From Actinomycetota bacterium (GTDB lineage: Bacteria; Actinomycetota; Acidimicrobiia; Acidimicrobiales; JAJPHD01), in the NCBI GenBank assembly GCA_021325455.1, contig JAJPHD010000010.1, forward strand, positions 62,001-126,000: a DNA stretch of 64,000 nt, written 5' to 3'. The notes under the pieces are model-generated. The model worked only from the letters and a program-made list of their open reading frames with translations. It searched no databases and was not told the origin of the DNA. This document shows positions 45,162 through 60,439 of the stretch, one piece after another. Made by a program: the position numbers and the translations under genes. Every line of letters begins with the position of its first letter. Position 1 is the first letter of the stretch.

Positions 45162-45170
45162 GGGTCCGGC

Positions 45171-45208: not shown

Positions 45209-46639
45209 ATGGACGCCCCGCGGGTGGCGATCATCGGGGCCGGTGCCTCCGGCCTGTGCATGGCCATGCAGCTGAAGCGGGCGGGCCTCACGAGCTTCAC
45301 CATCTACGAGAGGGGGGCGGACCTCGGGGGCACCTGGAGGGACAACACCTACCCGGGGGCCGGCTGCGACATCCCCTCCCACCTCTACTCCTACTCGTTC
45401 GCCCCCAAGCACGACTGGCCCCGCAAGTACGCCAGCCAGGCGGAGATCCTCTCCTATCTCCGGGGCTGCGCGCAGCGCTACGGGCTGGGTGGGCACCTGC
45501 GTCTTGGAGCCGAGGTGGTGCGGGCGGAGTGGATAGGGAGGGGATGGCGCCTCTCCCTGGCGGATGGCGAGCAGGCCGAGGCCCAGTTCGTGGTGGCAGC
45601 AACGGGACAGTTGAGCGAGCCCAGCGTCCCCGAGCTGCCTGGGCTCGGTGGGTTCCGGGGGGCCAGCTTCCACTCGGCCCGCTGGGACCACGGCCACGAC
45701 CTCGAGGGCCAGGACGTGGCAGTGGTGGGCACCGGGGCCAGCGCCATACAGCTGGTCCCCGAGCTGGCCCGGGTGTCCCGTTCCCTCACCATCTACCAAC
45801 GCACGCCGAACTGGGTGCTGCCCAAGCCGGACCGGGAGTTCAGCCGGCTCGAGAAGGCGGCCTTCGCCGCCGTCCCGGGGGCCGAGCGGCTCTACCGATG
45901 GCTCGTCTACTGGACATACGAGACGCGCTTCGTGGCCTTCCGGCACCCCCGGGTGGGCCGGGTCCTGGTCGGGGCGCCGGCCGCCCTGGCGGCCCGCTCC
46001 CGGGCCGGGCCCCCTCCGCCCCGGCCCGACTACCCGGTGGGCTGCAAGCGGATCCTGATCTCCAACGACTGGTTCCGCGTCCTCGAGCGGCCGTCGGTGG
46101 AGCTGGTCACCGACCCCATCGAGGAGGTGACGGCCCATGCCGTGGTGGCCGGGGGTCGGGTCCGGCGGGCTGACGCCATCATCTTTGCCACCGGCTTCCG
46201 CTCGACCGCCTTCCTCGGGGGGATGGAAGTCGTCGGCAAGGAGGGGCGCACCCTCGCCGAGGTGTGGCAGGGGGGTGCCTGGGCCTACCTCGGTGTGGCG
46301 GTGCCGGGGTTCCCCAACCTGTTCCTCCTGTACGGGCCCAACACCAACCTGGGCCACAGTTCCATCCTGTTCATGGTGGAGCGCCAGGTGGCGTGGGCCC
46401 TCAGGCGTATCCGGGCCGGGGTGCAGGTGGACGTGGACCCGGCCGCAGCCACCCGCTACCAGGCCGGGGTGGAGCGCCGAATGGGGGGCACGGTGTGGTC
46501 AGCAGGCTGCCGGAGCTGGTACAAGACGCCAGAGGGCAGGGTGACCAACAACTGGCCCAGCTACACGGTGAGGTACTGGTGGGAGACCAAGCGGCCCCGC
46601 CCGGGCTCCCTCCGGCTCGCCGGGAAGGAGGAGCTATGA
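45209..46639 (+). CDS. Flavin-containing monooxygenase, Baeyer-Villiger type
   Basis: A 476-residue class B flavoprotein monooxygenase. FAD motif VAIIGAGASGLCMAMQL at the N-terminus, the fingerprint FRGASFHSARWDH (F-x-G-x3-H-x3-W-D) and the NADPH motif VAVVGTGASAIQLVPEL identify Baeyer-Villiger monooxygenases. DLGGTWRDNTYPGAGCDIPSHLYSYSF is also typical. It inserts oxygen next to a carbonyl of an unknown ketone or steroid-like substrate. AAAGG precedes the ATG at 4-5 nt spacing. Its stop overlaps the ATG of the next ORF (ATGA). Confidence 0.92.
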   Translation: MDAPRVAIIGAGASGLCMAMQLKRAGLTSFTIYERGADLGGTWRDNTYPGAGCDIPSHLYSYSFAPKHDWPRKYASQAEILSYLRGCAQRYGLGGHLRLGAEVVRAEWIGRGWRLSLADGEQAEAQFVVAATGQLSEPSVPELPGLGGFRGASFHSARWDHGHDLEGQDVAVVGTGASAIQLVPELARVSRSLTIYQRTPNWVLPKPDREFSRLEKAAFAAVPGAERLYRWLVYWTYETRFVAFRHPRVGRVLVGAPAALAARSRAGPPPPRPDYPVGCKRILISNDWFRVLERPSVELVTDPIEEVTAHAVVAGGRVRRADAIIFATGFRSTAFLGGMEVVGKEGRTLAEVWQGGAWAYLGVAVPGFPNLFLLYGPNTNLGHSSILFMVERQVAWALRRIRAGVQVDVDPAAATRYQAGVERRMGGTVWSAGCRSWYKTPEGRVTNNWPSYTVRYWWETKRPRPGSLRLAGKEEL

Positions 46640-47325
46640 GGCTCGGGACCGGCCCCCGCTCGGGAGAGGGCTCGCCTGCCAATCCCCTGACCCCTCTGGT
46701 CGGGGCGCTCTCCCCGCTGGCCCGGGAGGCGGTGCGGACGGCCGCCACCACCTGGACCCTGCAGCGGGGGACGTGGGACCGCTGCGCCGTGAACCGGGCC
46801 GCCGCCGTGGTGGGCAGCCCGGTCCGCAGCTTCGGGCGAGCGGCCAAGGTGCTCCAGACCCGCCGGAGGGCCATCGTGCGCTTCGTGAACGCCTGGGACC
46901 GGCTCCCGGGCACCGACGCCGCCTGTACCCGCCTCCTCCTCGAGGCTCTGGAGGAGGTGGACGCAGGGCCAGGCAGCCCGCCCCCGGGGCCTGGGACCGC
47001 CCCCCCGGCCGGCGGCCGGGACCTGACCGCCACGGGCCGGGCGGTGGCCCGGCCGACCCGTCAGCCGGCCAGGGCCGCCCAGGTCCCGGGGTCCAGCTCC
47101 AGGAGCGAGCCCAGCACCAGGTCGGCCTCCCGGTACCCAGGGTCCCCCGCTACCGCCCTGTCCGGCACGGCCACGCACCGCATGCCCGCCGCCTTGGCCG
47201 CCCTCACGCCGGCCAGGGAGTCCTCGATGGCCACGCACCGGCCCGGGTCCACCCCCAGCTTGGCCGCCGTCGTCAGGTACACGCCCGGGTCGGGCTTGCC
47301 GCAAGGCTCCTCCTCGGCCGAGTAG
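46636..47325 (+). CDS. Hypothetical protein coupled to the monooxygenase
   Basis: A 229-residue ORF whose ATG overlaps the monooxygenase stop. Residues 15-110 look structured (LVGALSPLAREAVRTAATTW, WDRCAVNRAAAVVGSPVRSFGRAAKVL, IVRFVNAWDRLPGTDAACTRLLLEALEEV), with an all-helical pattern. The remaining half is Pro/Gly/Arg-rich and lies antisense to the HAD gene for 265 bp. It is not recognised. The helical part is likely coding; the tail may only reflect the lack of stop codons in high-GC antisense frames. Confidence 0.45.
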   Translation: MRLGTGPRSGEGSPANPLTPLVGALSPLAREAVRTAATTWTLQRGTWDRCAVNRAAAVVGSPVRSFGRAAKVLQTRRRAIVRFVNAWDRLPGTDAACTRLLLEALEEVDAGPGSPPPGPGTAPPAGGRDLTATGRAVARPTRQPARAAQVPGSSSRSEPSTRSASRYPGSPATALSGTATHRMPAALAALTPARESSMATHRPGSTPSLAAVVRYTPGSGLPQGSSSAE

Positions 47326-47723
47326 ACCACCTCGAACCTCCCTCCCAGGCCCAGGCGGTCGAGCACCGCCTGGATCAGCACGTAGGAGGAGGAGGACGCC
47401 AAGGCCAGCCGCAACCGCCGGCCCTCGAAGAAGTCCAGGGCCCCCACCACCCCGGGGAGGGCCTCGCCCCGCTCCCTCACCAGCTCCACGACCCTGCCCA
47501 CGATGGCCTCCTCCACCTCCGGGAGGGAAGGGCCGGCCCAGGGGTGCTGGGCGTGGCGGAGGGCCACCACCTGGTCGACCCGCATGCCCATGGTCCGCCG
47601 ACAATCCTCCCGGGTCAGATGGAGCCCCAAACGGCCGAACACCTCGATCTCGGCGTCCTGCCAATAGGGCTCGGAGTCGAGGAGCACGCCGTCCATGTCG
47701 AAGATGACGGCTTCAGCGGGCAC
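47061..47723 (-). CDS. HAD-superfamily phosphatase, hexitol phosphatase/beta-PGM-like
   Basis: A 220-residue haloacid dehalogenase-like hydrolase of subfamily IA. Motif I FDMDGVLLDSEPYW holds the nucleophile Asp and acid Asp, motif II is LALASSSSYVLI, the motif III Lys is in GKPDPGVYL and motif IV in CVAIEDSLAGVRAAKAAGM. The DSEP-YWQDAEI start resembles YniC (HxpB) hexitol phosphatases and phosphatases cleaning 2-deoxyglucose-6-phosphate. The substrate is uncertain. It is the last gene of the minus-strand one-carbon cluster, 27 bp behind the methyltransferase. Confidence 0.92.
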   Translation of the reverse strand: MPAEAVIFDMDGVLLDSEPYWQDAEIEVFGRLGLHLTREDCRRTMGMRVDQVVALRHAQHPWAGPSLPEVEEAIVGRVVELVRERGEALPGVVGALDFFEGRRLRLALASSSSYVLIQAVLDRLGLGGRFEVVYSAEEEPCGKPDPGVYLTTAAKLGVDPGRCVAIEDSLAGVRAAKAAGMRCVAVPDRAVAGDPGYREADLVLGSLLELDPGTWAALAG

Positions 47724-47750
47724 GGGCCCTGCCCCCCCGGCGCATCGGCA

Positions 47751-48485
47751 TCAGGCCTCCAGCGGGACGCCCCGGAGGGGGACCTCGTAGCAGATGGCAG
47801 GCCATTCGGGCTCCGCCGGTACCAGGTCGCAGATGGCCCGGGATGCCGGCTCTCCCGGGGGCACCGGGACGAGCCGGCCCACTTCGAACCCGCAGGACGC
47901 CAGCATGTCGGCAAGCGCCGTGGTGGTGGGGGCCCACCAGTTGGACCCGTCACCGGACAGCTCGTCGCGGCGGTAGAACCTCACCACCGGCTGGCCGGGG
48001 TCCACCTCCCGGTCGGCCACCGCCGTCTCCAGCGAGCAGCGGGCCCCCGTGAGCCGGCGGAGGGCGTCCAGGCCGAGCAGGGGATGGCGCAGATGGTAGA
48101 GCACCCCCCAGCACAGGACCAGGTCGAAGCGGCGTCCCAGCACCTCGGGCAACTCGTAGAGGGAGGCCTGGACGAACCGGACGCGCGAGTCGAGCAGCTC
48201 GATCAGCCGGTCCATGCCGAACCACGACGGCGGGTAGATGTCCACGGCCACCACGTCTGACGCCCCCCGCCGCTCGGCCATGAAGGCAGCCCCGCCGTTG
48301 GCCGTGCCTATGTCCAGCACGCTGGTCCCCGAGAGGTCCTGGGGCAGCCCGGCGGCGCCGGCCAGCCAGCCTATGTCCGAGACCCCGGGGGTGATCACGC
48401 CGGGTGCCAGCTCCATCTTGTGGAACCACACGAAACGGGAGGAGTCGATGAACTGCCTGGCCTCTGCCGGGTCGGGGGTGCGCAC
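47751..48485 (-). CDS. SAM-dependent methyltransferase, CmoB/DUF1698-like
   Basis: A 244-residue class I methyltransferase. The N-terminal WFHKMELAPGVITPG matches the CmoB/DUF1698 family start, motif I is VLDIGTANGGAAFMAERRGA, VVAVDIYPP follows and FDLVLCWGVLYHLRHPLLGLDALRRL is the family block after it. CmoB modifies wobble uridine of tRNA in gammaproteobacteria, but actinobacterial members are uncharacterised. It starts 10 bp behind fchA, so it should be in the one-carbon operon, whose folate products feed methionine and SAM. Confidence 0.85.
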   Translation of the reverse strand: MRTPDPAEARQFIDSSRFVWFHKMELAPGVITPGVSDIGWLAGAAGLPQDLSGTSVLDIGTANGGAAFMAERRGASDVVAVDIYPPSWFGMDRLIELLDSRVRFVQASLYELPEVLGRRFDLVLCWGVLYHLRHPLLGLDALRRLTGARCSLETAVADREVDPGQPVVRFYRRDELSGDGSNWWAPTTTALADMLASCGFEVGRLVPVPPGEPASRAICDLVPAEPEWPAICYEVPLRGVPLEA

Positions 48486-48495
48486 GGCCCCCCAG

Positions 48496-49116
48496 TCAAC
48501 CAGGAGCCCGTGCCGCGGCCTGTAGGACCCGCTCCAGGGCCGGGCGGGCCTCCCCGGCCAGGTCCTGGGCCCGGGCCCGCGTCTCGGCTACGTAGGCGCC
48601 GTCGGCGATGAGCCCGAGGTTCGCCCCCACGTTCACCCATGCCCCCTCGAGGGCCGCCCTCACCAGCAGGGAGCCCACGGCCAGGTCTCCCGCCGCCGTG
48701 GGGTTCACCTTGCCCTGGGCCCTCTCCAGCAGGGAGGCCAGCTCGGCCGCCAGCCCCATGAGGCGCAGGGGCACGGCCGTGGCCCCCTTCAGGGCCTCCT
48801 GCACCCGGGCGGTGCGGGCGCGGCGCTCCTCCTCCCCGCCCTTCGGGAGGGCCAGGGCGTCCACCACCGCCTGGTACGCCCGGCTGTCCTCGTCGGCCAG
48901 CGACAGGGCCTCGCCCCGGGCCCGGTCGGCCTGGGCCAGCACGGCCGCCACCTCCTCCTGGTAGGCCTCGTAGCGGTGCCGGCCCACCGTGAGGCGGCAC
49001 ACCATGGCGAGGAGGGCGGCCCCCAGGCCAGCGCTCACGGCGCTGGCCGATCCCCCGCCCGGGGTGGGGCGGCCGGAGGCAAGGTTGTCCAGGTAGGCCT
49101 CCAGGCCGGTGGTCAT
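48496..49116 (-). CDS. fchA: Cyclodeaminase/cyclohydrolase family protein (methenyl-THF cyclohydrolase FchA)
   Basis: A 206-residue FTCD cyclodeaminase-like protein. The N-terminal LDNLASGRPTPGGGSASAVSAGLGAALLAMV is the folate-binding glycine-rich signature, and GKVNPTAAGDLAVGSLLVRAALEGAWVNVGANL is the second block. Family members hydrolyse 5,10-methenyl-THF to 10-formyl-THF or deaminate formimino-THF. Its ATG overlaps the folD stop (ATGA), which ties the two reactions together. Because the FolD neighbour has lost its cyclohydrolase residues, the hydrolase role is the natural one here. Confidence 0.92.
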   Translation of the reverse strand: MTTGLEAYLDNLASGRPTPGGGSASAVSAGLGAALLAMVCRLTVGRHRYEAYQEEVAAVLAQADRARGEALSLADEDSRAYQAVVDALALPKGGEEERRARTARVQEALKGATAVPLRLMGLAAELASLLERAQGKVNPTAAGDLAVGSLLVRAALEGAWVNVGANLGLIADGAYVAETRARAQDLAGEARPALERVLQAAARAPG

Positions 49117-50063
49117 GGCCGGAGCCTCGGCTTCCGGGGGGGCAGGGGTGATGCCGGTGCGTCCAGGCCGGCTGCCATCCTGGCCGCCAGGACGGTGTTG
49201 TGCACGAGCCAGGCATCGGTCACCGGCCCCACCCCCCCCGGCACCGGGGAGAGGGCCTCGGCCTTGGGGGCCACGCTCTGGGCGTCGACGTCGCCCACCA
49301 GGCGCACCCGCCCGCTGCCGGGGTCCTTCACGGGGTTTATGCCCACGTCGATCACGATGGCCCCCTCCCGGACCATGTCCCCGCTGATCAGGCCGGCCAC
49401 CCCCGCGGCGACCACCAGCACGTCGCCCTGGGCGGTGTACTCGGCCAGCCGGCCGGCGGCAAAGGTGTGCTCATCGCAGGAGATGGCCGTCAGGTTGCGG
49501 GCCAGGGCCAGCAGCATCGCCGGCTTGCCCACGTTGTTCGACCGGCCCACGAACACTGCCGTGCGCCCCTGGTAGAAGGCGCCGGGGTCCCGCCCCGAGG
49601 CCTCCAGGTAGGAGTCGAGGAGGTAGAAGCAGGAGCCGGGGGTGGACGGCACGAAGCGCGGGCGGCCCAGGGACAGCAGGCCGGCGTTGGCGGGGTGCAC
49701 CGCCTCCACGTCCTTCAAGGGGTCCAAGATGGCGTACATGGCCAGCTCCGACACCTGGGGGGGAAGGGGGCGCAGCACGAGGATCCCGGATATGCGGGGG
49801 TCGGCGTTGAGCTTCCCCACGGCGGCCAGGGCGTCGGCCTGCTCGGCGTCGGCGGGGAGGTGCTCGGCCGCGTACCTGCACCCCACCGCCTCGGCCAGGC
49901 GCCGCAGGCGGCGCTCGTAGGCCGAGGCCGCGTAGTCCTCGCCCACCAGGACCGTCCCCAGGCCGGCCCGGGCCCCGGCGGCCCCTATGGCCCTCACCTC
50001 CTCGGCCAGCCAGGCCTTGAGGCCGTCGGCCAGGGCCACGCCGTCGATACGGGCCGCCGCCAT
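49113..50063 (-). CDS. folD: FolD-like methylene-THF dehydrogenase lacking cyclohydrolase residues
   Basis: A 316-residue FolD homologue. The NADP site (AVFVGRSNNVGKPAMLLALA, then VIDVGINPVKD) and the PVPGGVGPVT C-terminal motif are intact, so oxidation of 5,10-methylene-THF should work. Against E. coli and human FolD, the catalytic Tyr is kept (Tyr49), but the Lys four residues on is Leu53, the Gln of LVQLPLP is Leu97 (LVLRPLP) and the Asp of KDVDG is Glu120 (KDVEA). These residues drive the cyclohydrolase step, so the enzyme is probably dehydrogenase-only. An 82-bp gap separates it from fhs. Confidence 0.92.
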   Translation of the reverse strand: MAAARIDGVALADGLKAWLAEEVRAIGAAGARAGLGTVLVGEDYAASAYERRLRRLAEAVGCRYAAEHLPADAEQADALAAVGKLNADPRISGILVLRPLPPQVSELAMYAILDPLKDVEAVHPANAGLLSLGRPRFVPSTPGSCFYLLDSYLEASGRDPGAFYQGRTAVFVGRSNNVGKPAMLLALARNLTAISCDEHTFAAGRLAEYTAQGDVLVVAAGVAGLISGDMVREGAIVIDVGINPVKDPGSGRVRLVGDVDAQSVAPKAEALSPVPGGVGPVTDAWLVHNTVLAARMAAGLDAPASPLPPRKPRLRP

Positions 50064-50145
50064 CAGGCCGTCGCCACCCGCCGGCCCGGGCCCGGCGCCC
50101 CCCGCCCGCCGCCCCGCCGAGCCTCCCGCAGTCGGGACCCCCCGC

Positions 50146-51843
50146 TCATGCCAGCCCGACTATCTCCCCGTGCTCGTCGATGTCGATGTGCATGGCAGCA
50201 GGATCGGAGCCGAGGCCGGGCATGGTGCGCATGTCACCACTGATGAGGTAGATGAACCCCGCCCCCACCGAGGCCCTGGCCTCCCTCACCGGGAGCCGCC
50301 AGCCCGTGGGGGCGCCCTTCAGCGAGGGGTCGGAGGAGATGGACAGGTGGGTCTTGGCTATGCACACGGGCAGCCCACCGAACCCGGCCCGCTCGTACAT
50401 GTCCAGCTGCCGGGACGCCAGAGGCAGGTAGTCCACGCCGTCGGCCCCGTAGACGCGGGTGGCGACGGTCTCGATCTTCTCCCGCAGCGGCGCCGATGAC
50501 TCGTAGGCGAAGCGGAACTCCCCCGGCTCCTCAGCGGCCTCGGCCACGGCCTCGGCCAGCTCCACGGCCCCCCTCCCCCCGTCGGTGAAGTGCGTGCACA
50601 CCGCCGAGCGCACCCCCAGGGAGGAAGCTATCTCCTCGATGGCCCGGTGCTCGGAGGGGAAGTCGTCGGGGAAGGCGTTGACCGCCACCACCGGGGTGAC
50701 GCCGTGCAGGCGGATGTTCTCTATCTGCTTGCGCAGGTTGGCCCCGCCGATGAGCACCTCGTCGGGGTTCTCCTCGAGGAGGGCGGGGGGCAGGGGGCGG
50801 CCGGCCACGATGCGGTGGCGCCCGGAATGGGCCTTGAGCGCCCGCACGGTCGTCACCACCACGGCGGCGTCAGGCACCAGGCCCGAGGTCCGGCACTTGA
50901 TGTTGAAGAAGCGCTCGGCCCCCATGTCGGCTCCGAAGCCCGACTCGGTGATCAGGTAGTCCCCCCCGTGGATGCCGATGAGGTCGGCCACCACCGAGGA
51001 GTTGCCGTGGGCGATGTTCCCGAACGGCCCGGCGTGAACCAGCACGGGAGTGCCCTCGAGCGACTGGAGCAGGTTGGGCTTGATGGCGTCCCGCATGATC
51101 ACCGTCATGGAGCCGGCCCCGTGCAGCTGCTCGGCGGTCACCGGCTCGCCCCCGGAGGTGTAGCCCACCACGATGCGGCCCATGCGGGCCCTCATGTCCT
51201 GCAGCGAGGTCGCCAGGGCCAGGATGGCCATGACCTCGGAGGCAGCCGTTATGTCGAAACCGGTCTGGCGGGGTATGCCGTCGGCCTTGGTGCCGAGGCC
51301 CACCACGATGTTCCTGAGCACCCGGTCGTTCACGTCCAGCACCCGCCGCCAGGTGATGGCGTGCTGGTCGAGGCCCAGGGCATTGCCCTTGTCCAGGTGG
51401 TTGTCGACCATGGCCGACAGCAGGTTGTGGGCGGCCGTGACGGCGTGCATGTCGCCGGTGAGGTGCAGGTTGAGGCTCTCGAAGGGCACCACCTGGGAGT
51501 ACCCCCCGCCGGCCGCTCCCCCCTTGATCCCGAAGGTGGGGCCCATGGAGGCCTGGCGGATGGCCACGGTGGCCACCTTGTCGATGTGGGCGAAGGCCTG
51601 CCCCAGGCCGACGGTCGTCGTGGTCTTGCCCTCCCCGAGGGGGGTGGGGGTGACGGCCGTGGTCACCACGTACTTGGCCCGGGGGCGGTCGGCCAGCTCC
51701 TGTATGGCCGAGAGCTTGATCTTGGCGACATGCTCGCCGTAGTGCTCGAGGAGGTGGTCGCCGATGCCCAGCCGGGCAGCGACGGAGGAGATCGGCTCCA
51801 GCTTGGCCTGGCGGGCGATCTCCAGAGCCGTGGGGAAGGCCAT
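50146..51843 (-). CDS. fhs: Formate-tetrahydrofolate ligase
   Basis: A 565-residue ATP-dependent enzyme joining formate and THF, reversible toward ATP formation from 10-formyl-THF. TPTPLGEGKTTTTVGLGQAFA is the P-loop, followed by PTFGIKGGAAGGGYSQVVP, HLTGDMHAVTAAHNLLSA, TRVYGADGV near the C-terminus and ISGDMRTMPGL. Length is normal. AAAGGAG lies about 12 nt before ATG 51843. It starts 5 bp behind soxG, so in this operon it most likely drains one-carbon units from sarcosine as formate with ATP gain. Confidence 0.97.
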   Translation of the reverse strand: MAFPTALEIARQAKLEPISSVAARLGIGDHLLEHYGEHVAKIKLSAIQELADRPRAKYVVTTAVTPTPLGEGKTTTTVGLGQAFAHIDKVATVAIRQASMGPTFGIKGGAAGGGYSQVVPFESLNLHLTGDMHAVTAAHNLLSAMVDNHLDKGNALGLDQHAITWRRVLDVNDRVLRNIVVGLGTKADGIPRQTGFDITAASEVMAILALATSLQDMRARMGRIVVGYTSGGEPVTAEQLHGAGSMTVIMRDAIKPNLLQSLEGTPVLVHAGPFGNIAHGNSSVVADLIGIHGGDYLITESGFGADMGAERFFNIKCRTSGLVPDAAVVVTTVRALKAHSGRHRIVAGRPLPPALLEENPDEVLIGGANLRKQIENIRLHGVTPVVAVNAFPDDFPSEHRAIEEIASSLGVRSAVCTHFTDGGRGAVELAEAVAEAAEEPGEFRFAYESSAPLREKIETVATRVYGADGVDYLPLASRQLDMYERAGFGGLPVCIAKTHLSISSDPSLKGAPTGWRLPVREARASVGAGFIYLISGDMRTMPGLGSDPAAMHIDIDEHGEIVGLA

Positions 51844-51848
51844 GTGGT

Positions 51849-52487
51849 TCAAGTCTCCTTTGCAGGCGGTGCGAACACTCCGGTTGGTTCGATACCCCAC
51901 TCCGCCCCGGCGTCGATCAGGACGTCGTAGAGGTACTGGCCCGAGGGCCGCTCACAGTGCAGCAGGTAGGAGCGGCTCCCGTCCAGATCGTCGCGCACCA
52001 CGTCCGTCGCCAAGTTGGCCAGGAAGGAGCGGAACGCCACCAGGTTGGGGCTCACCCGGTCCGAGAGGTCGACCGGGCACAGCTTGGCCAGGACCATGGG
52101 CGCAGTCGGCCCGGTCAGGCGAAGAAGGGCCCGCCCGTGGGTGAGGTCCACCACGGAGGCGAAGCCCTCCCCCCTCTCCACCTCCACCTCCCCGGCCAGG
52201 AGGGAGGCCGATCCCGGCGGGCCGACAAGCAGCCACTCCCCCGGCCCCGAGCCCACCACCAGGACCCCGTCCGCCCTCCGCCGGGCCCGCCCGTGGCCCA
52301 CACCGAGTCGGGCAGCCACGCCAGCTCCCGGCTCCGCCCTCACCAGCACCTTGGCAAGGGGTGACACGTCGGCCAGCCACAGGGAGGAGGTGCTCACCCG
52401 GGTGGACACCTCCCAGCCCCCCATGACCTGCGTGGGCCCCGGAGGGCGGACGGCGCTGCGGGCGAGAGGGGAGAGGGCCTCAGGCAC
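51849..52487 (-). CDS. soxG: Sarcosine oxidase gamma subunit
   Basis: A 212-residue SoxG. The GcvT-like small fold shows VGSGPGEWLLVGP, VDLTHGRALLRLTGPTAPMVLAKLCPVDL and the characteristic SYLLHCERPSGQYLYDVLIDAG near the end. SoxG lies close to the folate-binding alpha subunit in the heterotetramer. The GTG at 52487 overlaps the end of soxA by 8 bp. It occupies the expected last place in the sox gene order. Confidence 0.92.
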   Translation of the reverse strand: MPEALSPLARSAVRPPGPTQVMGGWEVSTRVSTSSLWLADVSPLAKVLVRAEPGAGVAARLGVGHGRARRRADGVLVVGSGPGEWLLVGPPGSASLLAGEVEVERGEGFASVVDLTHGRALLRLTGPTAPMVLAKLCPVDLSDRVSPNLVAFRSFLANLATDVVRDDLDGSRSYLLHCERPSGQYLYDVLIDAGAEWGIEPTGVFAPPAKET

Positions 52488-55377
52488 GGAGCCGCACGCC
52501 CTCGGGGTCGAAATGAGCCCGGTGCTCCATCACCCTTGCTCCCACCCTCGTCCGGTCCGGCAGCACCACCGTCACCACCGTTCCCGGCGTGGCCAGGTGG
52601 GGGGCCACCAGGCCCAGGCAAATCGAGCGGCCCAGGGTGGGTGAGCGCCGGGAGGAGGTGACCCGACCCGAGATGGTGGCCTCTCCCTCCACGATGAGGC
52701 AGGGTTCGGGGGGAACGAGGGCAGGGTCGAGGGGCTGGAGTCCCACCAGGCGCTGGTGCCCCCCGCCCCGTCCCGGCCCCACCAGCTCGGGCCGGCCTGC
52801 GAAGTCATGCTTGTCCAGCTCCACCAGCCAGTCGAGCGAGGCTGCGAAGGGGTGCGTCGACCCGTCGGTGTCCTGGCCCACCATGAGGTGGCCCTTCTCC
52901 AGGAGCAACACGCCCTGGGCCTCCACGCCGAAGGCCCCCACGCCGAGGTCCGCTCCCCTGTCCATGAGCGTCTCCCACACGAACAGGCCGTAGCTCGCCG
53001 GAACGTTCACCTCGTAGCCGAGCTCACCGGTGGAGCCGAGGCGCCACATGTAGCAGCCGGGTACGCCGCATACCGAGCCCCGCCGAACCTCCATGTGGGG
53101 AAAGGCCTCGGGCGAGAGGTCCACACCCTCCACCACCCTCTCCATGAGCTGGCGGGAGCGGGGGCCGGCCACGTCGATGCTGGCGAAGGCGGCGGTCAGG
53201 GGCGTGACGTGCACCTTCCATTCGGGGTGGGCGGTCTGCAGCCAGGACTCCAGCCACTCCCAGACCGTCGCCTCACCCGCCGGGGTCGTGGACATGAGGT
53301 AATGGGCCGGGCCCACACGGCCCGTCACCCCGTGGTCCAGGACCACCCCCTCCTCGGTGCACATGACGCCGTAGCCCACCGCCCCCTCGGCCCGGCCCGC
53401 CCACCTGTTGGCGTAGACCAGGTCGAGCAGCTTGGGCACGTCGGGCCCCTTCAGGTCCAGCTTGCCGCGGGGCGTGACGTCCATGAGCCCCACTGCGTGG
53501 CGCACCCCTAGCACCTCGGCCTCGGGGTCGCCGTAGTGGCCCGGGCGGACCCACTGGCCCTCCACGACGGGCTCGGCGCCGTGGGCCTCGTGCCAGGCCT
53601 GCATGGGCGAGCGCCGCACCGGCTCGTGCCTGGGCCCGGCCAGAGCGCCCAGGCTGATGGGGGCATAGGGGGGCCGCCACACCGTGGTGCCCGTCTCATC
53701 CATGGTCCTGCCCGTGGCCTCGGCCACCACGGCCACGGCATTGGCCACCTCCAGCTTCCCCTGGGACGGCCCCATGGTCGCCGTCGTGTACCGCTTGGCC
53801 AGCTCTATCGAGTCGTACCCTTCCCTCACCGCCGCCACGAGGTCCCTGGACGACACGTCTCCCGAGTAGTCGACCATGCCGTGGGTCGAGGAGCGGAAGA
53901 GGGCCGGGTGCCCTTCCCGAGGGCTGGCCGGGACCTCTCCTCGCTGGCCGGCCGCCAGCCTGCCGATGGCCCGGGCCTGCTCCACCATCTGGTCCAGGGG
54001 GCCGTCGCCGGCGATGCCCCCGGCGGCGAGCACTCCCTCGGCCAACCGGCCCCCGGGGAGGAACCGGGCCGCCCTCTCGTCGTAGAAGGGCCGGTCACCG
54101 GCCATGTCGAGCAGCGACGTGGGGGCGGTCCAGCCCACGGCCGTCACGAGCAGGTCGCACTCCAGGCGCTCACCCCCGGGCAGCTCCACTCCTCCCACCC
54201 CCCCGGCGCCACCGAGCAGGAGGACGGCCTCGAGGCCGCCGCCAAGGGCTTCCCGGGCCCGCTGGCGGCGGCTCCTGGCCGGGCCCAGCGCCCGCACGAT
54301 GCCGCCCCCCCGCCGGGCGTCCACCACCCGGACCACCTCCACCCCGGCCCGCTGGAGGTCGGCCACGGCCGCATCGCCGGAGGAGTTGGCGGTGAGCACC
54401 ACGGCCTCCTCTCCTGGTTTCACCGCCCAGAGGTTGATCAGCCGGCGGACGGCGGTGGAGAGCATCACCCCGGGCCTGTGGTTGCCCTCGAAGACGTAGG
54501 GCCGCTCGATGAGCCCGGGCGCCACCACGAGGGAGCGGGCCCGGGCCTTCACGAGCCGCTCCACCACGGCCTGGGGGCCGCCCGCCTCGATGGGCCCTCC
54601 CGGGGCGGGCCGCTGCACTATGGCCAGCCAGTTGCCCTCGTAGCGGCCCGTCACCACCGAGTTGGTGAGCACCTCGATCCCCGCCTCGGACTCCACCTCC
54701 ACCCTCAGCTGGGCCAAGGCGGCCAGCTCGTCGGGGCCTCCCCAGCGCAGGTGGCCACCCAGCTCGTACTCCTCCTCCACCAGCATCACCCCGGCGCCGG
54801 CCCGGGCGGCGGCGACGGCGGCGGCCATCCCCGCCGGACCCCCGCCCGCCACCACCACGTCGGGGTGCGCGTAGCGCTTGTCGTAGCAGGCAGGCCGGGG
54901 GTCGGCCGGGAGCCTGCCACCGTTGGCAAGGCGCTTCCGCACCTGCTGGTAGGCGGGCAGGAGGGCCACAGGCTTCATGAAGGTCTTGTACTGGGAGCCG
55001 GCTCCCATGAGGGGCCCCACCAGCTGGCTGACCGCCTTCAGGTCGACCCCGAGCGAGGGCCAGACCCCCTGGGGTGACACCACCATCCCGGGCTCCGCCC
55101 GGCGATGGGCCCCCCTCACGTTCGGCTCCCCACCGACCTGGACGGTGCATCCGGGGTCGTGGAAGCTGGCGGTGAGTATGCCTCTCGGCCGGTGGTACCT
55201 CGAGCTGCGGGAGAAGGCTCGCACACCCGAGGCGGCCAGGGCCGAAACGATGGTGTCGCCGGGGTAAGCGGGGAAGGGCCTCCCGCACCAGGTGATCTCG
55301 AACCGCCGGTCCCGGTCGATCACTTCCCCCGGCTGGCGGGGGAGGCGCCTGGCCTCCCGGCGGGCGGTCGCCGTCAC
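52480..55377 (-). CDS. soxA: Sarcosine oxidase alpha subunit
   Basis: A 965-residue SoxA. An N-terminal ferredoxin-like part without clear cluster cysteines (CGRPFPAYPGDTIVSALAASGV, SSRYHRPRGIL) is followed by an NAD-binding FAD-type module (DVVVAGGGPAGMAAAVAAARAGA, CDLLVTAVGWTAPTSLLD). From about residue 570 a GcvT-like tetrahydrofolate domain runs to the end (LMDVTPRGKLDLKGPDV, STGELGYEVNVP, VGAFGVEAQGVLLLEKGH). It takes the methyl carbon from the imine formed on SoxB and makes 5,10-methylene-THF. The GTG overlaps the soxD stop. Confidence 0.96.
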   Translation of the reverse strand: MTATARREARRLPRQPGEVIDRDRRFEITWCGRPFPAYPGDTIVSALAASGVRAFSRSSRYHRPRGILTASFHDPGCTVQVGGEPNVRGAHRRAEPGMVVSPQGVWPSLGVDLKAVSQLVGPLMGAGSQYKTFMKPVALLPAYQQVRKRLANGGRLPADPRPACYDKRYAHPDVVVAGGGPAGMAAAVAAARAGAGVMLVEEEYELGGHLRWGGPDELAALAQLRVEVESEAGIEVLTNSVVTGRYEGNWLAIVQRPAPGGPIEAGGPQAVVERLVKARARSLVVAPGLIERPYVFEGNHRPGVMLSTAVRRLINLWAVKPGEEAVVLTANSSGDAAVADLQRAGVEVVRVVDARRGGGIVRALGPARSRRQRAREALGGGLEAVLLLGGAGGVGGVELPGGERLECDLLVTAVGWTAPTSLLDMAGDRPFYDERAARFLPGGRLAEGVLAAGGIAGDGPLDQMVEQARAIGRLAAGQRGEVPASPREGHPALFRSSTHGMVDYSGDVSSRDLVAAVREGYDSIELAKRYTTATMGPSQGKLEVANAVAVVAEATGRTMDETGTTVWRPPYAPISLGALAGPRHEPVRRSPMQAWHEAHGAEPVVEGQWVRPGHYGDPEAEVLGVRHAVGLMDVTPRGKLDLKGPDVPKLLDLVYANRWAGRAEGAVGYGVMCTEEGVVLDHGVTGRVGPAHYLMSTTPAGEATVWEWLESWLQTAHPEWKVHVTPLTAAFASIDVAGPRSRQLMERVVEGVDLSPEAFPHMEVRRGSVCGVPGCYMWRLGSTGELGYEVNVPASYGLFVWETLMDRGADLGVGAFGVEAQGVLLLEKGHLMVGQDTDGSTHPFAASLDWLVELDKHDFAGRPELVGPGRGGGHQRLVGLQPLDPALVPPEPCLIVEGEATISGRVTSSRRSPTLGRSICLGLVAPHLATPGTVVTVVLPDRTRVGARVMEHRAHFDPEGVRLRA

Positions 55378-55634
55378 CTCTCCCCCCCCGCCGGGACCGC
55401 CCTGCGGACCTCGTTGGTGAGAGTGTGGCGCTCGACCGTCACGTACCGCCGGCACCCGGCCCGGTGGAACCACACCTCGGTGGTCCAGCCGCACGGGTTG
55501 GCGCGGTGGTAGAGGTAGGAACGCCACTCGGCCGGGCTGGCGCGGGCGGGATCGGGACGGGGCCGGTGCTCCCCCTTCCAGGCGAACTCCGAGGCGTTGC
55601 GGGGGCCGCAATGCGGGCAGGGGATGAGGATCAT
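55374..55634 (-). CDS. soxD: Sarcosine oxidase delta subunit
   Basis: An 86-residue SoxD. ILIPCPHCGPRNASEFAWKGE and the later CGWTTEVWFHRAGCRRYVTVERHT give the Cys-x2-Cys and His/Cys set that binds one structural zinc in the heterotetramer. The ATG at 55634 fits the normal length, and AGGAAGG lies upstream. It overlaps soxA by GTGA and is 31 bp behind soxB. Confidence 0.95.
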   Translation of the reverse strand: MILIPCPHCGPRNASEFAWKGEHRPRPDPARASPAEWRSYLYHRANPCGWTTEVWFHRAGCRRYVTVERHTLTNEVRRAVPAGGER

Positions 55635-55665
55635 GATGCCTTCCTCTCGGGGCTTGCGGTGTGCA

Positions 55666-56988
55666 TCAATGGCCCACGCCGGCGGCATCCCTCTCCTCGA
55701 CCAGGCGCCCCTCGGCGAAGCGGGCCAGGTCGAAGGCCGCCATGAGCTCGGGGGTCCTCGAGGTGGCCACCAGCTCCGCCATGGCCTGGCCCGCCGCCGG
55801 ACCGGCCATGAAGCCGTTCGTCCCCCAGCCGACGTCCACGAGGAACCCCTCCACCGGAGTGGGGCCCATGATGGGCGAGAGGTCAGGGGTGATGTCGCAC
55901 AGCCCGCTCCACTGGCGCAGCAGGCGCATGGGGGCGACCGAGGGCATCAGCTGGAGCACGCGACCGGCCACCTCCTCGGTGAACTCGAGTGAGCCCCTCA
56001 TGGAGTACGAGGCGAAGGGGTCCGGGCTGGCCCCGAGCACGAGCTCGCCGCGATCGGTCTGGCTCACCTGGACGTCCAGGGTCCCCGACACCACCACCGC
56101 GTCCAGGAGCACCTGCACCGGCTCGGTGACTGCGGCCTGGAGGGGACGGGTGATGATGGGCATGCTCAGCCCGACCATGTCGGATACCAGGCTGGCCCAG
56201 CCCGCCGTGCAGCTCACCACCACAGGCGTGGACACCTCTCCCCGGTTGGTCGTGACCCCGGTCACCCGGTCCCCGGCGGTGGAGATGGCCAGGACCTCGG
56301 TGCCCTGGTGGATCTCCACCCCCAGGGCGTCCGCCGCCCGGGCATAGCCCCAGTTGACGGCATCGTGGCGTACGGTCCCGCCCGAAGGGTGGTAGAGGGC
56401 CCCCATGATGGGGTAGCGGGCGCGCGAGGAGACGTCTGCCAAGGGGACCAGCCTCCTCACCTCCTCGGGGCCGACCACCTCGGAGTCCACCCCATGGAGC
56501 TTGCTCACCTCGGCCCGCCAGCGCATGGCTCGCAGCGAGGCGTCCGAGTGGGCCAAGGTCAGGTGCCCGCGGGGGGAGAACATGACGTTGAAGTTGAGCT
56601 CGCCCGAGAGCTCCCCGTACAGGCGCAAGGAGCGGTCGTAGAAGCGGACCCCCTCGGGCGTGAGGTAGTTCGACCACACGATGCCGCTGGTGCGCCCCGA
56701 GCTGCCCCCGCCCAGGTAGCCCTTGTCCAGCACTGCCACCTTCCTGACGCCGTGGTCCCTGGCCAGGTGGTAGGCGGTGGCCAGACCATGCACGCCGGCG
56801 CCCACGATCACGGCGTCGTACGTGCTGCCGAGCTCATGGTGGCGCCAGGCGGGCCTCCAGGGGCGCCCGGTGACCCCGTGGGCCACGAGGGCGCCGGCCG
56901 AGTACCGCCGGGGACGGGTCGCCTCCCCGACGGCGCGGGCCACCCTCCCGAGCCGCGCTCCCCTGCTCTCCGCCTTCGTCGAGCCCAC
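55666..56988 (-). CDS. soxB: Sarcosine oxidase beta subunit
   Basis: A 440-residue FAD subunit that oxidises sarcosine. The N-terminal YSAGALVAHGVTGRPWRPAWR block and YDAVIVGAGVHGLATAYHLA FAD motif are typical of SoxB, followed by GYLGGGSSGRTSGIVWSNYL. GGTVRHDAVNWGYARAAD contains the His expected to carry covalent FMN. MRLLRQWSGLCDITPDLSPIMG and WGTNGFMAGPAAGQAMAELV complete the fold. GTG 56988, with GAAGGA upstream, is preferred to the longer frame. It follows the KdpD N-terminal gene by 43 bp on the same strand. Confidence 0.95.
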   Translation of the reverse strand: MGSTKAESRGARLGRVARAVGEATRPRRYSAGALVAHGVTGRPWRPAWRHHELGSTYDAVIVGAGVHGLATAYHLARDHGVRKVAVLDKGYLGGGSSGRTSGIVWSNYLTPEGVRFYDRSLRLYGELSGELNFNVMFSPRGHLTLAHSDASLRAMRWRAEVSKLHGVDSEVVGPEEVRRLVPLADVSSRARYPIMGALYHPSGGTVRHDAVNWGYARAADALGVEIHQGTEVLAISTAGDRVTGVTTNRGEVSTPVVVSCTAGWASLVSDMVGLSMPIITRPLQAAVTEPVQVLLDAVVVSGTLDVQVSQTDRGELVLGASPDPFASYSMRGSLEFTEEVAGRVLQLMPSVAPMRLLRQWSGLCDITPDLSPIMGPTPVEGFLVDVGWGTNGFMAGPAAGQAMAELVATSRTPELMAAFDLARFAEGRLVEERDAAGVGH

Positions 56989-57031
56989 GCCGTCCTTCTC
57001 CCTCCCCCCGGTGCCTGTGAAACCCGTGGGC

Positions 57032-58213
57032 TCAGTCCACGCCGAGGAGGCGAGCGCCATCCGGCCCTTCCGGGGACCCGGAGAGGCTAGTCCCCGTGCG
57101 GGGGGAGATCACGTGGAGGTCGATCCCCGCTCTGCTGGTGGCCCGAAAGAGGGCCTGGACGACCGAGCCCCGCACCAGCTCCTCCCAGCGGCTCCTGTGG
57201 CTGGCCCCCACGACGATCTGGGTGACCTGGTGGTCACGGGCGAAGGCCAGGAGGGCCGAGGCGACGTCCTCACCCTCCACCTGGTGCCAGGAGCCGCCGA
57301 CGGCCGAGGTGAGCCGGCGCAGCTCCTCGACGGCGCGGCCCGAGCCGGGGCCCGAGCCGGTCACCACGTGCACCACGAACAGGTCGGCCTTGGCCCTGGC
57401 CGCCATCCGGGCCGCCCTGCGCACCACGTAGTCCCCCCCCGGCGCCCCGGCCACACCAGCCATGATCCGCTCCGTGGTCTCCCACACCTCGGAGCGGCCG
57501 TGGCTGCGGAGGAACTCGAGCAGCTCGTCCTCGGTCTCGTCGGCGACGAAGCGAAGGGCCAGCTCCCGCAGGGCGATCAGGTTCTCGGTCCGGAAGAAAT
57601 GGGCCAGGGCGTCGGGGACCTTGTCCGGTGGGTAGATGTTGCCATGCAGCATGCGGCGCCGCAGCTGGGCCGGCGAGGAGTCGATGAGCTCCAGCTGGTC
57701 CGCCCTCCGGACCACCCAGTCGGGGACCCTCTCCCTCACCGGCGCCCCGGTCATCTGCTCCACCGCATCAGCCAGGCTCTCCAGGTGCTGGATGTTGACG
57801 TTGGTGATCACGTCTATCCCGTGGTCCAACAGCACCAGGACGTCCTGCCAGCGCTTCTCGTTGCCCGACCCAGGGACGTTGGTGTGGGCCAGCTCGTCCA
57901 CCAGCGCCACCGCCGGCTGACGGTTCAGGACCGCATCGAGGTCCATCTCCTCGAACCGGGCCCCCCGATGGATGACGACCTTGCGGGGCACCACCTCCAG
58001 GTCCCGGATGAGCGAGGCGGGGTGCGCCCGCCCATGGGTCTCGACGAAGCCGATGACCACATCGGTCCCCCGCTGCCTGCGCCGCCATCCTTCGTCGAGC
58101 ATGGCCGAGGTCTTCCCCACCCCGGCCACGGCCCCCAGGTAGATCCGGAAGCGACCGGCCGGCTCGACGGCGGTCTCGGTCACCAGGTTGGCAGCAGCCG
58201 GGTCCTCGGGCAC
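57032..58213 (-). CDS. KdpD N-terminal half (sensor ATPase plus USP domain), stand-alone
   Basis: A 393-residue protein equal to the cytoplasmic N-terminal half of KdpD. The KdpD domain has a Walker A motif IYLGAVAGVGKTSAML, VVIGFVETHGR, the Walker B-like VALVDELAHTNVPGS and ITNVNIQHLESLADAV. A universal stress protein domain follows (RIMAGVAGAPGGDYVVRRAARMA, TQIVVGASHRSRWEELVRGSV). There is no membrane or kinase part; that half is divergent, 26 bp away. It presumably acts with that kinase in K+ sensing. It is co-directional with soxB. Confidence 0.92.
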   Translation of the reverse strand: MPEDPAAANLVTETAVEPAGRFRIYLGAVAGVGKTSAMLDEGWRRRQRGTDVVIGFVETHGRAHPASLIRDLEVVPRKVVIHRGARFEEMDLDAVLNRQPAVALVDELAHTNVPGSGNEKRWQDVLVLLDHGIDVITNVNIQHLESLADAVEQMTGAPVRERVPDWVVRRADQLELIDSSPAQLRRRMLHGNIYPPDKVPDALAHFFRTENLIALRELALRFVADETEDELLEFLRSHGRSEVWETTERIMAGVAGAPGGDYVVRRAARMAARAKADLFVVHVVTGSGPGSGRAVEELRRLTSAVGGSWHQVEGEDVASALLAFARDHQVTQIVVGASHRSRWEELVRGSVVQALFRATSRAGIDLHVISPRTGTSLSGSPEGPDGARLLGVD

Positions 58214-58239
58214 CCTCCCATTGTGCCCTCCTCGGTAGC

Positions 58240-59745
58240 ATGAGAGCCGTGAGGCGCCTGGGTCCGGTCCCTCCCGGCATGCGCATCTGGACCGGGGCGA
58301 TGGTGGCCATGGCCGGAGTGGCCGCCCTGAGCGGCGCCATGGTCCCCTTGCGGGCCCACCTGAGCGTGGCGACCACTGCCCTGGTCCTGGTCGTCCCCGT
58401 GGTGGCCGGCGTTGCCGTCGGAGGCCTGCCGGCAGGGGCCGTCGGGGTGGCGTGCGGCTTCCTCGCTTACGACTTCCTGTTCATCCCCCCCTACGGGACC
58501 CTTTCTGTCGGCGCCCTCCAGAACTGGGTGGCGCTCGGTGTGTACGTGGCGACCATGCTCCTCGTCTCCTGGGTGGTGGGTGGCCTCCACGCCGCCCGGG
58601 CCGTGGCCGGGGACCGGGAGAAGGAGGCGCGCCGTCTCTTCGAGATGTCCGATCTCCTGATCGCCCACCGGCCCCGGGACGAGCTGCTCAGGGCGGTGGC
58701 GGCCACGGTGCGGCAGGCCTTCGGAGCGGCTGGCGTGGCCCTCCTGCTGCCTTCGGGCGACAGGCTCGAGACGGCGGCGTCGGACGGAGAGCCCTTCCCG
58801 GCCGACCACCTGGTGGGCCTGGCCTCGGGGGGCGGCCCCCCCGTGCCCCTGTCGAGGAGGGAGGACGTGCGCACGGTGGTGCTGTCCGCCGGCGGCCACC
58901 CGGTGGGCCTTCTCAGCCTGGCCGGGGCGGGCCTGGACTCCCGCCAGGACCAGCTTCTGGTCACCTTCGCCAACCACGCCGCCCTCGCCGTGGAGAGAGC
59001 CCAGCTTCAGGACCAGGCGGTGCGGGCCGGGGTGCTGGAGGAGGTGGACCGTTGGCGCTCGGCGCTGTGGGCGTCGGTGTCCCACGACCTGCGCACGCCC
59101 CTGTTCTCCATCAAGACCGCGGTGTCGAACCTGGCCGATCCGGACCTCGACCTGGCGCCCGAGGACCGCTCCGAGCTGCTGGCCATGGTGGAGGCGGAGA
59201 CCGATCGGCTGGCCCGGCTGGTCACCGAGCTGCTGGACATGACCAGGATCGAGGCCGGCACCCTCCAGGCCCACCTCGAGGCCGTTGCCGTGCCCGACGT
59301 GGTGGAAGACGCCATCGGCCGTCTGGGGCGGCGCCAGCTGGCTGGCCGCCTCGAGGTCGAGGTGCCCGAGGACCTGCCCCTCATGACCGCTGACCCCGTC
59401 CTAACCGGCCAGGTCCTGGCCAACCTCCTGGACAACGCCGGGCAGCACACCGGGCCCTTTTCGCCGGTGCGGCTCCAGGCCCGCCGGCTCGGGGACCGGA
59501 TCGAGATGAGCGTGGCCGACACCGGGCCCGGCATAGCGCCCGAGCAGAGGGAGGCCATCTTCCAGGCCTTCCACCGGGTCAAGGGGGCAGCCTCACCTCC
59601 GGGGGGTGTGGGCCTGGGCCTGGCCATCGCCAAGGCCTTCGTGGAGGCCCAGGGCGGAAGGATCTGGGTGGCCGACCGCGAGGGGGGAGGCTCGGTCTTC
59701 ACCGTGTCCCTTCCTGTCTTCGAGCTGGCGCACAAGGTGGCCTAA
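58240..59745 (+). CDS. KdpD C-terminal half (DUF4118 membrane histidine kinase)
   Basis: A 501-residue sensor kinase equal to the C-terminal half of KdpD. Four close transmembrane helices (DUF4118; about residues 20-115, with GFLAYDFLFIPPYGTLSV) are followed by a GAF-like domain, the HisKA domain with the phosphoacceptor His282 in ASVSHDLRTPLFSIKTAV, and the ATPase domain with NLLDNAGQHT, VADTGPGIAPEQ and GGVGLGLAIAKAFVEAQGG. It lacks the KdpD/USP input half. It should phosphorylate KdpE, encoded 4 bp downstream. Confidence 0.94.
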   Translation: MRAVRRLGPVPPGMRIWTGAMVAMAGVAALSGAMVPLRAHLSVATTALVLVVPVVAGVAVGGLPAGAVGVACGFLAYDFLFIPPYGTLSVGALQNWVALGVYVATMLLVSWVVGGLHAARAVAGDREKEARRLFEMSDLLIAHRPRDELLRAVAATVRQAFGAAGVALLLPSGDRLETAASDGEPFPADHLVGLASGGGPPVPLSRREDVRTVVLSAGGHPVGLLSLAGAGLDSRQDQLLVTFANHAALAVERAQLQDQAVRAGVLEEVDRWRSALWASVSHDLRTPLFSIKTAVSNLADPDLDLAPEDRSELLAMVEAETDRLARLVTELLDMTRIEAGTLQAHLEAVAVPDVVEDAIGRLGRRQLAGRLEVEVPEDLPLMTADPVLTGQVLANLLDNAGQHTGPFSPVRLQARRLGDRIEMSVADTGPGIAPEQREAIFQAFHRVKGAASPPGGVGLGLAIAKAFVEAQGGRIWVADREGGGSVFTVSLPVFELAHKVA

Positions 59746-59749
59746 GCCC

Positions 59750-60439
59750 GTGGCCCGGCTGCTCGTCATCGACGACGAGAGGGCGGTGCTGCGCTCCCTC
59801 GCCATAGGCCTGCGAGCCAAGGGCTACGACGTCGTCACCGCCGATACCGGCGAGGCGGGCCTGTCGCAGGCCGCTCTGTGCGATCCCGACGTGGTGGTCC
59901 TGGACCTCGGCCTCCCTGACGTCGACGGGATCCAGGTCTGCCGGCTCATCCGCACCTGGAGCCAGGTTCCCATCCTCGTCCTCTCGGCCCACGGAGCCGA
60001 GCAGACCAAGGTGGAGGCTTTGGACTGCGGCGCGGACGATTTCGTCACCAAGCCCTTTGGCATGGACGAGCTCCAAGCCCGGCTGCGGGTGGCCCTCCGT
60101 CACGGCCGCCAGCGCCAGGACGAGCCGGCCGAGACCGTCCTGCGGGTGGGCCCCCTCGAGGTGGACCGGGCCCGCCGGGCCGTAGCCGTGTCCGGCCAGG
60201 CGGTCGACCTCACCCCCCGGGAGTTCGACTTCCTCGCCTATCTGGCCAGCCACGCCGGCAAGGTGGTGACCCATCGCACCCTCCTGCAGGCCGTCTGGGG
60301 TGAGGGCTACGGCAGCGAGACCCACTACCTGCGCATTTACGCCAGCCGCCTGCGCTCCAAGCTGGGAGACCCTCATGGGCGCCTCCTGCGCACCAGCCCC
60401 GGGGTCGGCTACCAGCTGGCCGAGGCGGACCCCGGTTAG
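59750..60439 (+). CDS. kdpE: KdpE response regulator (OmpR/PhoB type)
   Basis: A 229-residue regulator. The receiver has the acidic pair in LLVIDDERAVLR, the phosphorylated Asp52 in VVVLDLGLPDVDG, Ser/Thr in LVLSAHG and Lys in FVTKPFGMDELQARLRVAL. The winged helix shows VDLTPREFDFLAYLASHAGKVVTHRTLLQAVWG and ETHYLRIYASRLRSKLG. It activates kdp transcription when turgor or K+ falls. GTG 59750 begins 4 bp behind the kinase stop. TTTACG repeats just downstream are its probable sites. Confidence 0.95.
   Translation: MARLLVIDDERAVLRSLAIGLRAKGYDVVTADTGEAGLSQAALCDPDVVVLDLGLPDVDGIQVCRLIRTWSQVPILVLSAHGAEQTKVEALDCGADDFVTKPFGMDELQARLRVALRHGRQRQDEPAETVLRVGPLEVDRARRAVAVSGQAVDLTPREFDFLAYLASHAGKVVTHRTLLQAVWGEGYGSETHYLRIYASRLRSKLGDPHGRLLRTSPGVGYQLAEADPG

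Follow-up and report, generated by a model that had tools for sequence, protein, structure and literature searches.

We analyzed a stretch of 64,000 nucleotides from an Actinomycetota bacterium (assembly GCA_021325455.1, contig JAJPHD010000010.1, positions 62,001 to 126,000 of the forward strand), here called the window, and focused on seven open reading frames (ORFs), overlapping or closely spaced, that correspond to soxB-D-A-G, fhs, folD and fchA. All seven were found on the minus strand, in the single cluster with overlaps or short gaps that a first-pass annotation made from the sequence had described. We consider it highly probable that the FolD of this cluster is a dehydrogenase-only enzyme completed by FchA in a catabolic one-carbon operon. 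The features on which this reading depends are the following (window coordinates):

49113..50063, minus strand: folD homologue, 316 amino acids, predicted dehydrogenase-only and NAD-type (PF00763 and PF02882; L53/L97/E120)
48496..49116, minus strand: fchA homologue, 206 amino acids, predicted methenyl-tetrahydrofolate (methenyl-THF) cyclohydrolase (PF04961, 193 bits, cut-off 24.5)
49113..49116, minus strand: four-base ATGA overlap of the folD stop and the fchA start, present as first annotated
49905..49907, minus strand: codon of Leu53 (E. coli Lys54)
49773..49775, minus strand: codon of Leu97 (E. coli Gln98)
49704..49706, minus strand: codon of Glu120 (E. coli Asp121)
49467..49478, minus strand: codons of Cys196-Asp197-Glu198-His199, where canonical FolDs have Cys-His-Ser-Arg/Lys

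The folD product carries THF_DHG_CYH and THF_DHG_CYH_C domains over its full length, and its AlphaFold2 model (mean predicted local distance difference test, pLDDT, 93.2) has a normal FolD fold, the best 38 structural matches all being FolD/MTHFD entries (Z 34.9-39.8). Aligned to the E. coli enzyme, Tyr49 falls on Tyr50, and Leu53, Leu97 and Glu120 lie on K54, Q98 and D121 exactly as first reported, giving the set Y/L/L/E for the Tyr50/Lys54/Gln98/Asp121 of bifunctional FolD. With the bifunctional enzymes of E. coli and P. aeruginosa the protein shares fold, family, Tyr50 and the dinucleotide loop, but it has Leu/Leu/Glu for their Lys/Gln/Asp and a pocket that is acidic at the 2'-phosphate. 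In P. aeruginosa FolD, the lysine is the acid/base of the cyclohydrolase step, the glutamine positions the lysine and the aspartate binds the pterin, and the catalytic residues are described as strictly conserved among orthologues (in the passages of PMC3338484 used here). None of the bifunctional-FolD NCBIfam cut-offs was reached among the 25 of 30 matched models listed (best 233.5 bits against 396). The substitutions span a supported clade of 36 FolDs that includes the window's (here called xLE, after the residues at the lysine, glutamine and aspartate positions), with Leu, Val or Ile at the lysine position in 36/36, Glu at the aspartate position in 36/36 and Leu at the glutamine position in 35/36 (Met in 1/36), which rules out a loss peculiar to this genome.

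In the route that we propose, SoxBDAG would demethylate an N-methyl amino acid onto THF to give 5,10-methylene-THF, and FolD would carry out the oxidation to methenyl-THF, with NAD as the probable acceptor, and stop there, because the general acid/base lysine and its positioning glutamine are both leucine. FchA, from its overlapping start, would hydrolyze methenyl-THF to 10-formyl-THF, from which Fhs would release formate with ATP, or run the opposite way, and formate dehydrogenase-like enzymes may burn the formate. As only one FolD was found in the genome, the 10-formyl-THF needed for purines would also have to come from FolD and FchA, unless it is made by Fhs from formate.

FolD sequences were collected from 54 loci of a related-locus search, from a sample of 396 Actinomycetota genomes and from fetched neighborhoods, giving 226 unique FolDs. 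A FolD match (E<=1e-55) was present in 63 of the 396 genomes and a PF04961 match in 130, of which 128 were over the cut-off. Loci L191-L283 were chosen for their PF04961 matches and L311-L330 from FolD matches without adjacent PF04961, the lysine state being unknown at the time of choice. The 108 lysine-bearing FolDs came from the related-locus search (32), a genome match list (27), loci of the whole-genome searches (2), L284-L310 (27, hand-picked from the genome match list, which shows part of the matches) and L311-L330 (20). FolD matches shorter than 200 residues were left out of the set, and those shorter than 250 out of the tree tests. Flanks were 1.5 kb for loci from genome searches, so that an FchA farther away would be missed, and adjacency was counted without a filter for FTCD fusions, the FchA beside L144, L146 and L216 being included.

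None of the 108 FolDs that keep the lysine had any FchA-type domain in the fetched stretch. A different residue occupies the site in 117: FchA lies within 600 bp on the same strand in 88 of these, at a greater distance in 2 (L016 and L021) and nowhere in the fetched stretch in 27. The remaining sequence, a fragment beside FchA, has a gap at the lysine site. The co-variation of the substitutions with the fchA neighborhood that the first-pass annotation had proposed as a check is thus present in these counts (88/117 lysine-less against 0/108 lysine-bearing), with about three lineages behind it. Every FolD adjoining FchA lacked the lysine, both in this first set (88 of 88 readable) and in a sample taken across the phylum Omnitrophota (35 of 35). 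The latter sample, which shares genome G255 with the first set, comprised 38 genomes and 36 FolDs (L352-L387); none of the 36 has the lysine, and for 35 of them a same-strand FchA lies no more than 600 bp away. In the Omnitrophota, Tyr50 is constant and the Gln98 position holds Q, S, H, A, G, L, M, T, P or F (non-Q in 20/36). The motifs found beside FchA were YVLD, YAFD, YALD, YQQE, YIQD, YLLE, YVLE, YILE, YAMD, YILD, YIFD and YLFD. No statement of a K54/FchA rule over phyla was found in the open-access literature searched, and it may be in print.

Some side observations concern the same genes. G300 has two fchA-folD pairs in one genome (C1:1588892-1590325 and 2531014-2532450). In a Prauserella genome, a further lysine-less FolD of another type (YIQD) adjoins an additional FchA (G249:C2:506789-508254, L117), and in Nocardia carnea two FolDs, YILE and YLQD (L399), lack the lysine. 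Many lysine-bearing FolDs of the window's class (L284-L288, L290-L294, L388-L390 and others) have an odd cofactor loop, such as GRGLTIGRP, and PRIGGVGPMT for PVPGGVGPMT.

A quick LG+G4 tree of 225 FolDs, built without the trait columns and with support values that deserve less trust, has three changes of the lysine state and seven of FchA adjacency. One lysine-less lineage is the clade that unites sequences of the types xLE, YLME, YVLD and YQQE (n=67, SH-like approximate likelihood-ratio support, SH-aLRT, 90), another is formed by the YAFD-type, xLD and YIQD sequences, a clade that lies among canonical FolDs (n=48, SH-aLRT 99), and the third is one archaeal sequence; FchA occurs in at least some genomes of each (three for three). 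With about three lineages of lysine loss, the association provides no significance test, and we rejected a reading of the 88-to-0 count as 88 independent events. The six YQQE sequences that the tree includes join the window's larger clade; as five of these come from Omnitrophota, the Omnitrophota are a separate sample and not a separate origin. Judged from these alignments and trees, the lysine-less FolD is an old state inherited clade-wide, and its partner varies.

The window's own genome (assembly 96% complete) contains one FolD and one PF04961 protein; the search for a second canonical folD found none within that completeness, and with a sole FolD a separate cyclohydrolase seems necessary. 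Among 23 genomes with a window-type FolD that were searched whole, 10 have FchA, 7 have an adjacent lysine-bearing FolD (FolD-K) and no FchA, and 6 have a FolD elsewhere only. Other FolD copies of these genomes were YKQD in 15 of the 16 read, the other being the YLQD copy of Nocardia carnea, in a genome with FchA. Of the 7 genomes with FolD-K, four draft metagenome-assembled genomes (G235, G236, G237 and G245) yielded only the xLE FolD with its neighboring FolD-K and no FchA. PF04961 was present in all 7 further genomes that were searched (Omnitrophota, Planctomycetota and Methanomicrobia). Members searched in this way have another candidate cyclohydrolase, be it FchA, a canonical FolD elsewhere or a FolD-K neighbor. 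The suggestion that a coupled neighbor compensates for a lost FolD activity is supported as far as complementation by FchA goes, but a local loss is not, the loss being clade-wide and the partner variable.

FolD-K (7 loci) sits between fhs and the xLE FolD and keeps Lys/Gln/Asp. In 7/7, the Gly of the cofactor loop is replaced by Ala (VG to VA), and Asp stands in place of both the 2'-phosphate-pocket His and a conserved Ala. The loop reads, for example, GTGSMVARP or GRGPLVALP for GRSxxVGxP; the change of the loop Ser to Gly is common to many lysine-bearing FolDs of the class, that of Gly to Ala is not. Measured against residues near-invariant in 101 canonical FolDs, FolD-K loses 1/19 in the catalytic and 4/26 in the cofactor domain, and xLE FolDs lose 6/19 (including Lys, Gln and Asp) and 3/26, the domain border being set by us. 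The predicted structure of FolD-K shows a complete FolD fold (mean pLDDT 95.6; template-modeling score 0.93 to 4b4u), and the ratio of nonsynonymous to synonymous polymorphism (pN/pS) is 0.40 overall, 0.38 in the cofactor part and 0.42 in the catalytic part. With all seven ORFs open and a pN/pS of this value, a decaying gene was rejected. A FolD-K query matched 181/296 genomes at E<=1e-45, the top among the matches listed being the FolD of G071 (L303; YKQD, ordinary loop). Evenly balanced, in our judgment, is the proposal that the bifunctional FolD has been divided in these relatives, the xLE FolD acting as dehydrogenase and the adjacent FolD-K as cyclohydrolase, with FchA filling that slot in the window as an interchangeable partner. 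It is countered by the pN/pS of FolD-K, which is no higher in the cofactor part, so that with selection not relaxed there the dehydrogenase loss stays a proposal; by near-invariant cofactor residues being lost alike in the two proteins; and by the new Asp, which could mean NAD use and not dehydrogenase loss.

The fchA product has PF04961 as its sole domain, without a formiminotransferase domain, and its closest solved structure is the methenyl-THF cyclohydrolase 7vg4 (118 bits; FTCD 91 bits), in agreement with the separate cyclohydrolase family first assigned to it. In a tree of 147 FchA sequences, it lies apart from the FchAs beside L007, L132-L135 and L144-L146, on a long branch of its own with weak support. 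As it does not group with the FchAs of other clade members, the partner varies; that it is the clade's original partner was rejected on this weakly supported placement.

An earlier statement that the NADP site is intact holds for the dinucleotide loop GRSNNVGKP (173-181) but not for the 2'-phosphate pocket, which reads C-D-E-H-T (C196-T200) where canonical FolDs have C-H-S-R/K-T; the NADP-type Ser-Arg/Lys was not found there, Glu-His following Cys-Asp. The pocket His is at least 93% conserved in the 101 canonical FolDs, and the 36 xLE-type sequences have Asp (29) or His (7). An acidic residue at this place of a Rossmann fold usually means NAD. The pocket residues presumably having this role, Cys-Asp-Glu-His predicts NAD instead of NADP as the cofactor, and NAD is the better prediction for the window FolD.

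The five upstream genes of the cluster are as follows:

55666..56988, minus strand: soxB-like, beta subunit, FAD amine oxidase (TIGR01373 467.6 bits, cut-off 529; PF01266)
55374..55634, minus strand: soxD-like, delta subunit (TIGR01374 97.4 bits, cut-off 116.5; PF04267)
52480..55377, minus strand: soxA-like, alpha subunit (TIGR01372 754 bits, cut-off 1164; Pfam domains along its length)
51849..52487, minus strand: soxG-like, gamma subunit (TIGR01375 57.3 bits, cut-off 144; PF01571, 2.6e-9)
50146..51843, minus strand: fhs, formate-tetrahydrofolate ligase (NF010030 781.5 bits, over the cut-off of 652)

The four subunits stand in the B-D-A-G gene order of heterotetrameric sarcosine oxidase, and the soxA product combines Fer2_4, FAD/NAD, A3 and GcvT folate domains. 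Likely starts are GTG 56988 for soxB, with GGAGGGAGAAGGA, resembling a ribosome-binding site, in front of it (ORF open up to ATG 57060), ATG 55634 for soxD, also favored by a ribosome-binding-site-like sequence (ORF open up to ATG 55688), and a GTG at about 55377 for soxA. The gaps are 5 bp between soxG and fhs and 82 bp between fhs and folD. Upstream of soxB, at 57032-60439, KdpD-like sensor and response-regulator-like ORFs were recognized by eye.

For PurU, nothing in the genome scored over the cut-off (three weak matches, the best at 58.6 bits against a cut-off of 285.95), which leaves Fhs as the sole formate-releasing candidate found. The genome also holds two formate dehydrogenase alpha-like genes, both under the model cut-off (G000:C18:107127-108995, L344; G000:C26:35999-37927, L345), with which formate made by Fhs could be oxidized further. 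Each contains an in-frame TGA; we take its surroundings, NRT*HAPSVAGL in one gene and QARI*HSSTVPSLG in the other, to resemble the selenocysteine site of formate dehydrogenase.

Several points weigh against a FolD confined to the dehydrogenase step and completed by FchA in such an operon. An independent-pairs sign test on the tree had 4 usable pairs and gave p = 1. No FolD was in reach of 60 FchA-bearing loci (7 flagged as fusions), and for most of these the genome's FolD was not read; the clade members G306 and G380 had no PF04961 match, and their other FolDs were not sought. In an assembly of this completeness a second FolD could be missing. The lysine and glutamine have been proposed to set up hydride transfer jointly and the aspartate change to affect the dehydrogenase, so that the first step of this FolD could suffer too; and the monofunctional bacterial enzyme of Peptostreptococcus productus uses NADP, so that the monofunctional state alone is no indication of NAD (passages of PMC6443876). 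The window FchA scored 151.9 bits with the NF045657 equivalog model (cut-off 275 bits), and all four Sox subunits stay below the curated cut-offs of TIGR01372-01375. We consider it quite improbable that a lysine-less FolD still hydrolyzes methenyl-THF through another residue or water, FchA only lifting flux in heavy one-carbon oxidation: this would suit the six genomes with a window-type FolD, no FchA, no adjacent FolD-K and a canonical FolD elsewhere only, from which it follows that the two genes need not travel together, but it sits badly with the split of FchA between lysine-bearing and lysine-less FolDs and with the free drift in Omnitrophota of Gln98, reported to position the lysine. There is a very slight chance that the operon lacks a cyclohydrolase of its own and that its PF04961 protein acts as a formimino-THF cyclodeaminase, in line with its NF045657 score, its long and weakly supported branch and a family that spans both activities; its nearest solved relative and the overlap of its start with the folD stop argue for the cyclohydrolase.

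The dehydrogenase-only FolD completed by FchA leaves two outer steps to be judged. The substrate of the oxidase would, from its families, be an N-methyl amino acid, most likely sarcosine. That the enzyme acts on another N-methyl amino acid, as N-methylglutamate dehydrogenase does, is a minority possibility of some weight, favored by the four sub-threshold Sox scores and by the finding in SAR11 that such sox operons are not separable by sequence from N-methylglutamate dehydrogenase (in the part of PMC3160333 that treats them); no N-methylglutamate synthase was recognized by eye among the ORFs at 45000-60500, where no dedicated search was made. Formate and ATP production through Fhs is plausible, the direction not being readable from sequence. 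It seems unlikely that Fhs runs forward, capturing formate with ATP so that the operon feeds methylene-THF synthesis: the enzyme is reversible (as stated in PMC5023230, in the passage cited), but soxBDAG upstream in the cluster would itself deliver methylene-THF, and the genome offers Fhs as its only formate-releasing candidate, along with formate dehydrogenase-like genes. Of the sarcosine-to-formate route with ATP first annotated, the FolD and FchA steps are supported by comparison, while sarcosine and the direction of Fhs remain as family-based assignments.

Related loci place xLE FolDs in other settings. Sox genes accompany them in L002, L003, L010, L012 and L015 of the 20 related loci L002-L021 (some of them short), so that association with sarcosine oxidase is no general feature of this FolD type. 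In Prauserella, the xLE FolD has a GcvT-like and a formyl-transferase-type protein nearby; Amycolatopsis has the GcvT-like protein together with one resembling methylene-THF reductase (MTHFR), and Nocardia has all three, its formyl-transferase-type protein carrying an ACT domain as PurU does. Lysine-less FolDs lie beside GcvT-like genes in L020 (6655-11805), L021 (7749-10897) and L016 (7642-12467), with MTHFR-like genes in L020 and L021 and formyl transferase genes in L020 and L016. These neighbors suggest THF-dependent demethylation followed by oxidation. In Aciditerrimonas (L009) and in L013, the genes next to the xLE FolD are unrelated.

The FolD of Clostridium perfringens is reportedly a monofunctional dehydrogenase and, as in the window, is said to work with separate FchA and Fhs; it presumably has no sox operon beside it. 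The existence of a separate FchA is noted in PMC7219735 (citing Aluri et al., 2016; passage cited). The NAD-dependent methylene-THF dehydrogenase of Saccharomyces cerevisiae (1edz) has the FolD fold and is monofunctional according to the title of a reference; it matches the window FolD with Z 29.9 and 2.4 A over 276 residues at 21% identity, but it is eukaryotic, and other FolDs are nearer to the window's in sequence and in structure. In Arthrobacter sp. 31Y, a second folD is clustered with genes for a non-homologous methenyl-H4F cyclohydrolase, for PurU and for an aminomethyltransferase, an arrangement that resembles the window in placing an actinobacterial folD by a separate cyclohydrolase in a one-carbon-transfer cluster and differs in having PurU for Fhs; a lysine loss is not mentioned in the sections cited (PMC5023230). 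In SAR11, sox (SAR11_1281-1284) lies beside fhs (SAR11_1285) as in the window, and THF-linked oxidation with Fhs and formate dehydrogenase has been proposed to give reduced nucleotides and ATP; unlike in the window, FolD is called bifunctional and is encoded elsewhere, and a table in that paper lists no FchA (PMC3160333, parts cited). In the open-access literature searched, we found nothing on sarcosine oxidase, formate-tetrahydrofolate ligase and cyclohydrolase together, and did not meet the NAD-type signature of the clade, the change of partner or the complementary FolD pair.

FolDs are routinely named bifunctional, and the NCBIfam models listed for the window FolD all carry that name, the protein falling under every one of their cut-offs. 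Lysine-less FolDs stand by FchA in many Actinomycetota families, and all Omnitrophota FolDs sampled are lysine-less; if the reading proposed here is true, the label would be wrong for whole groups, folate flux and the balance of NAD(P)H would have to be modeled differently, and FchA is suggested to be essential there. A one-residue test at K54 could let annotation separate both FolD types. The pair of xLE FolD and FolD-K, if true, would offer a clear natural example of a duplication after which the two steps of one active site were shared out between the copies.

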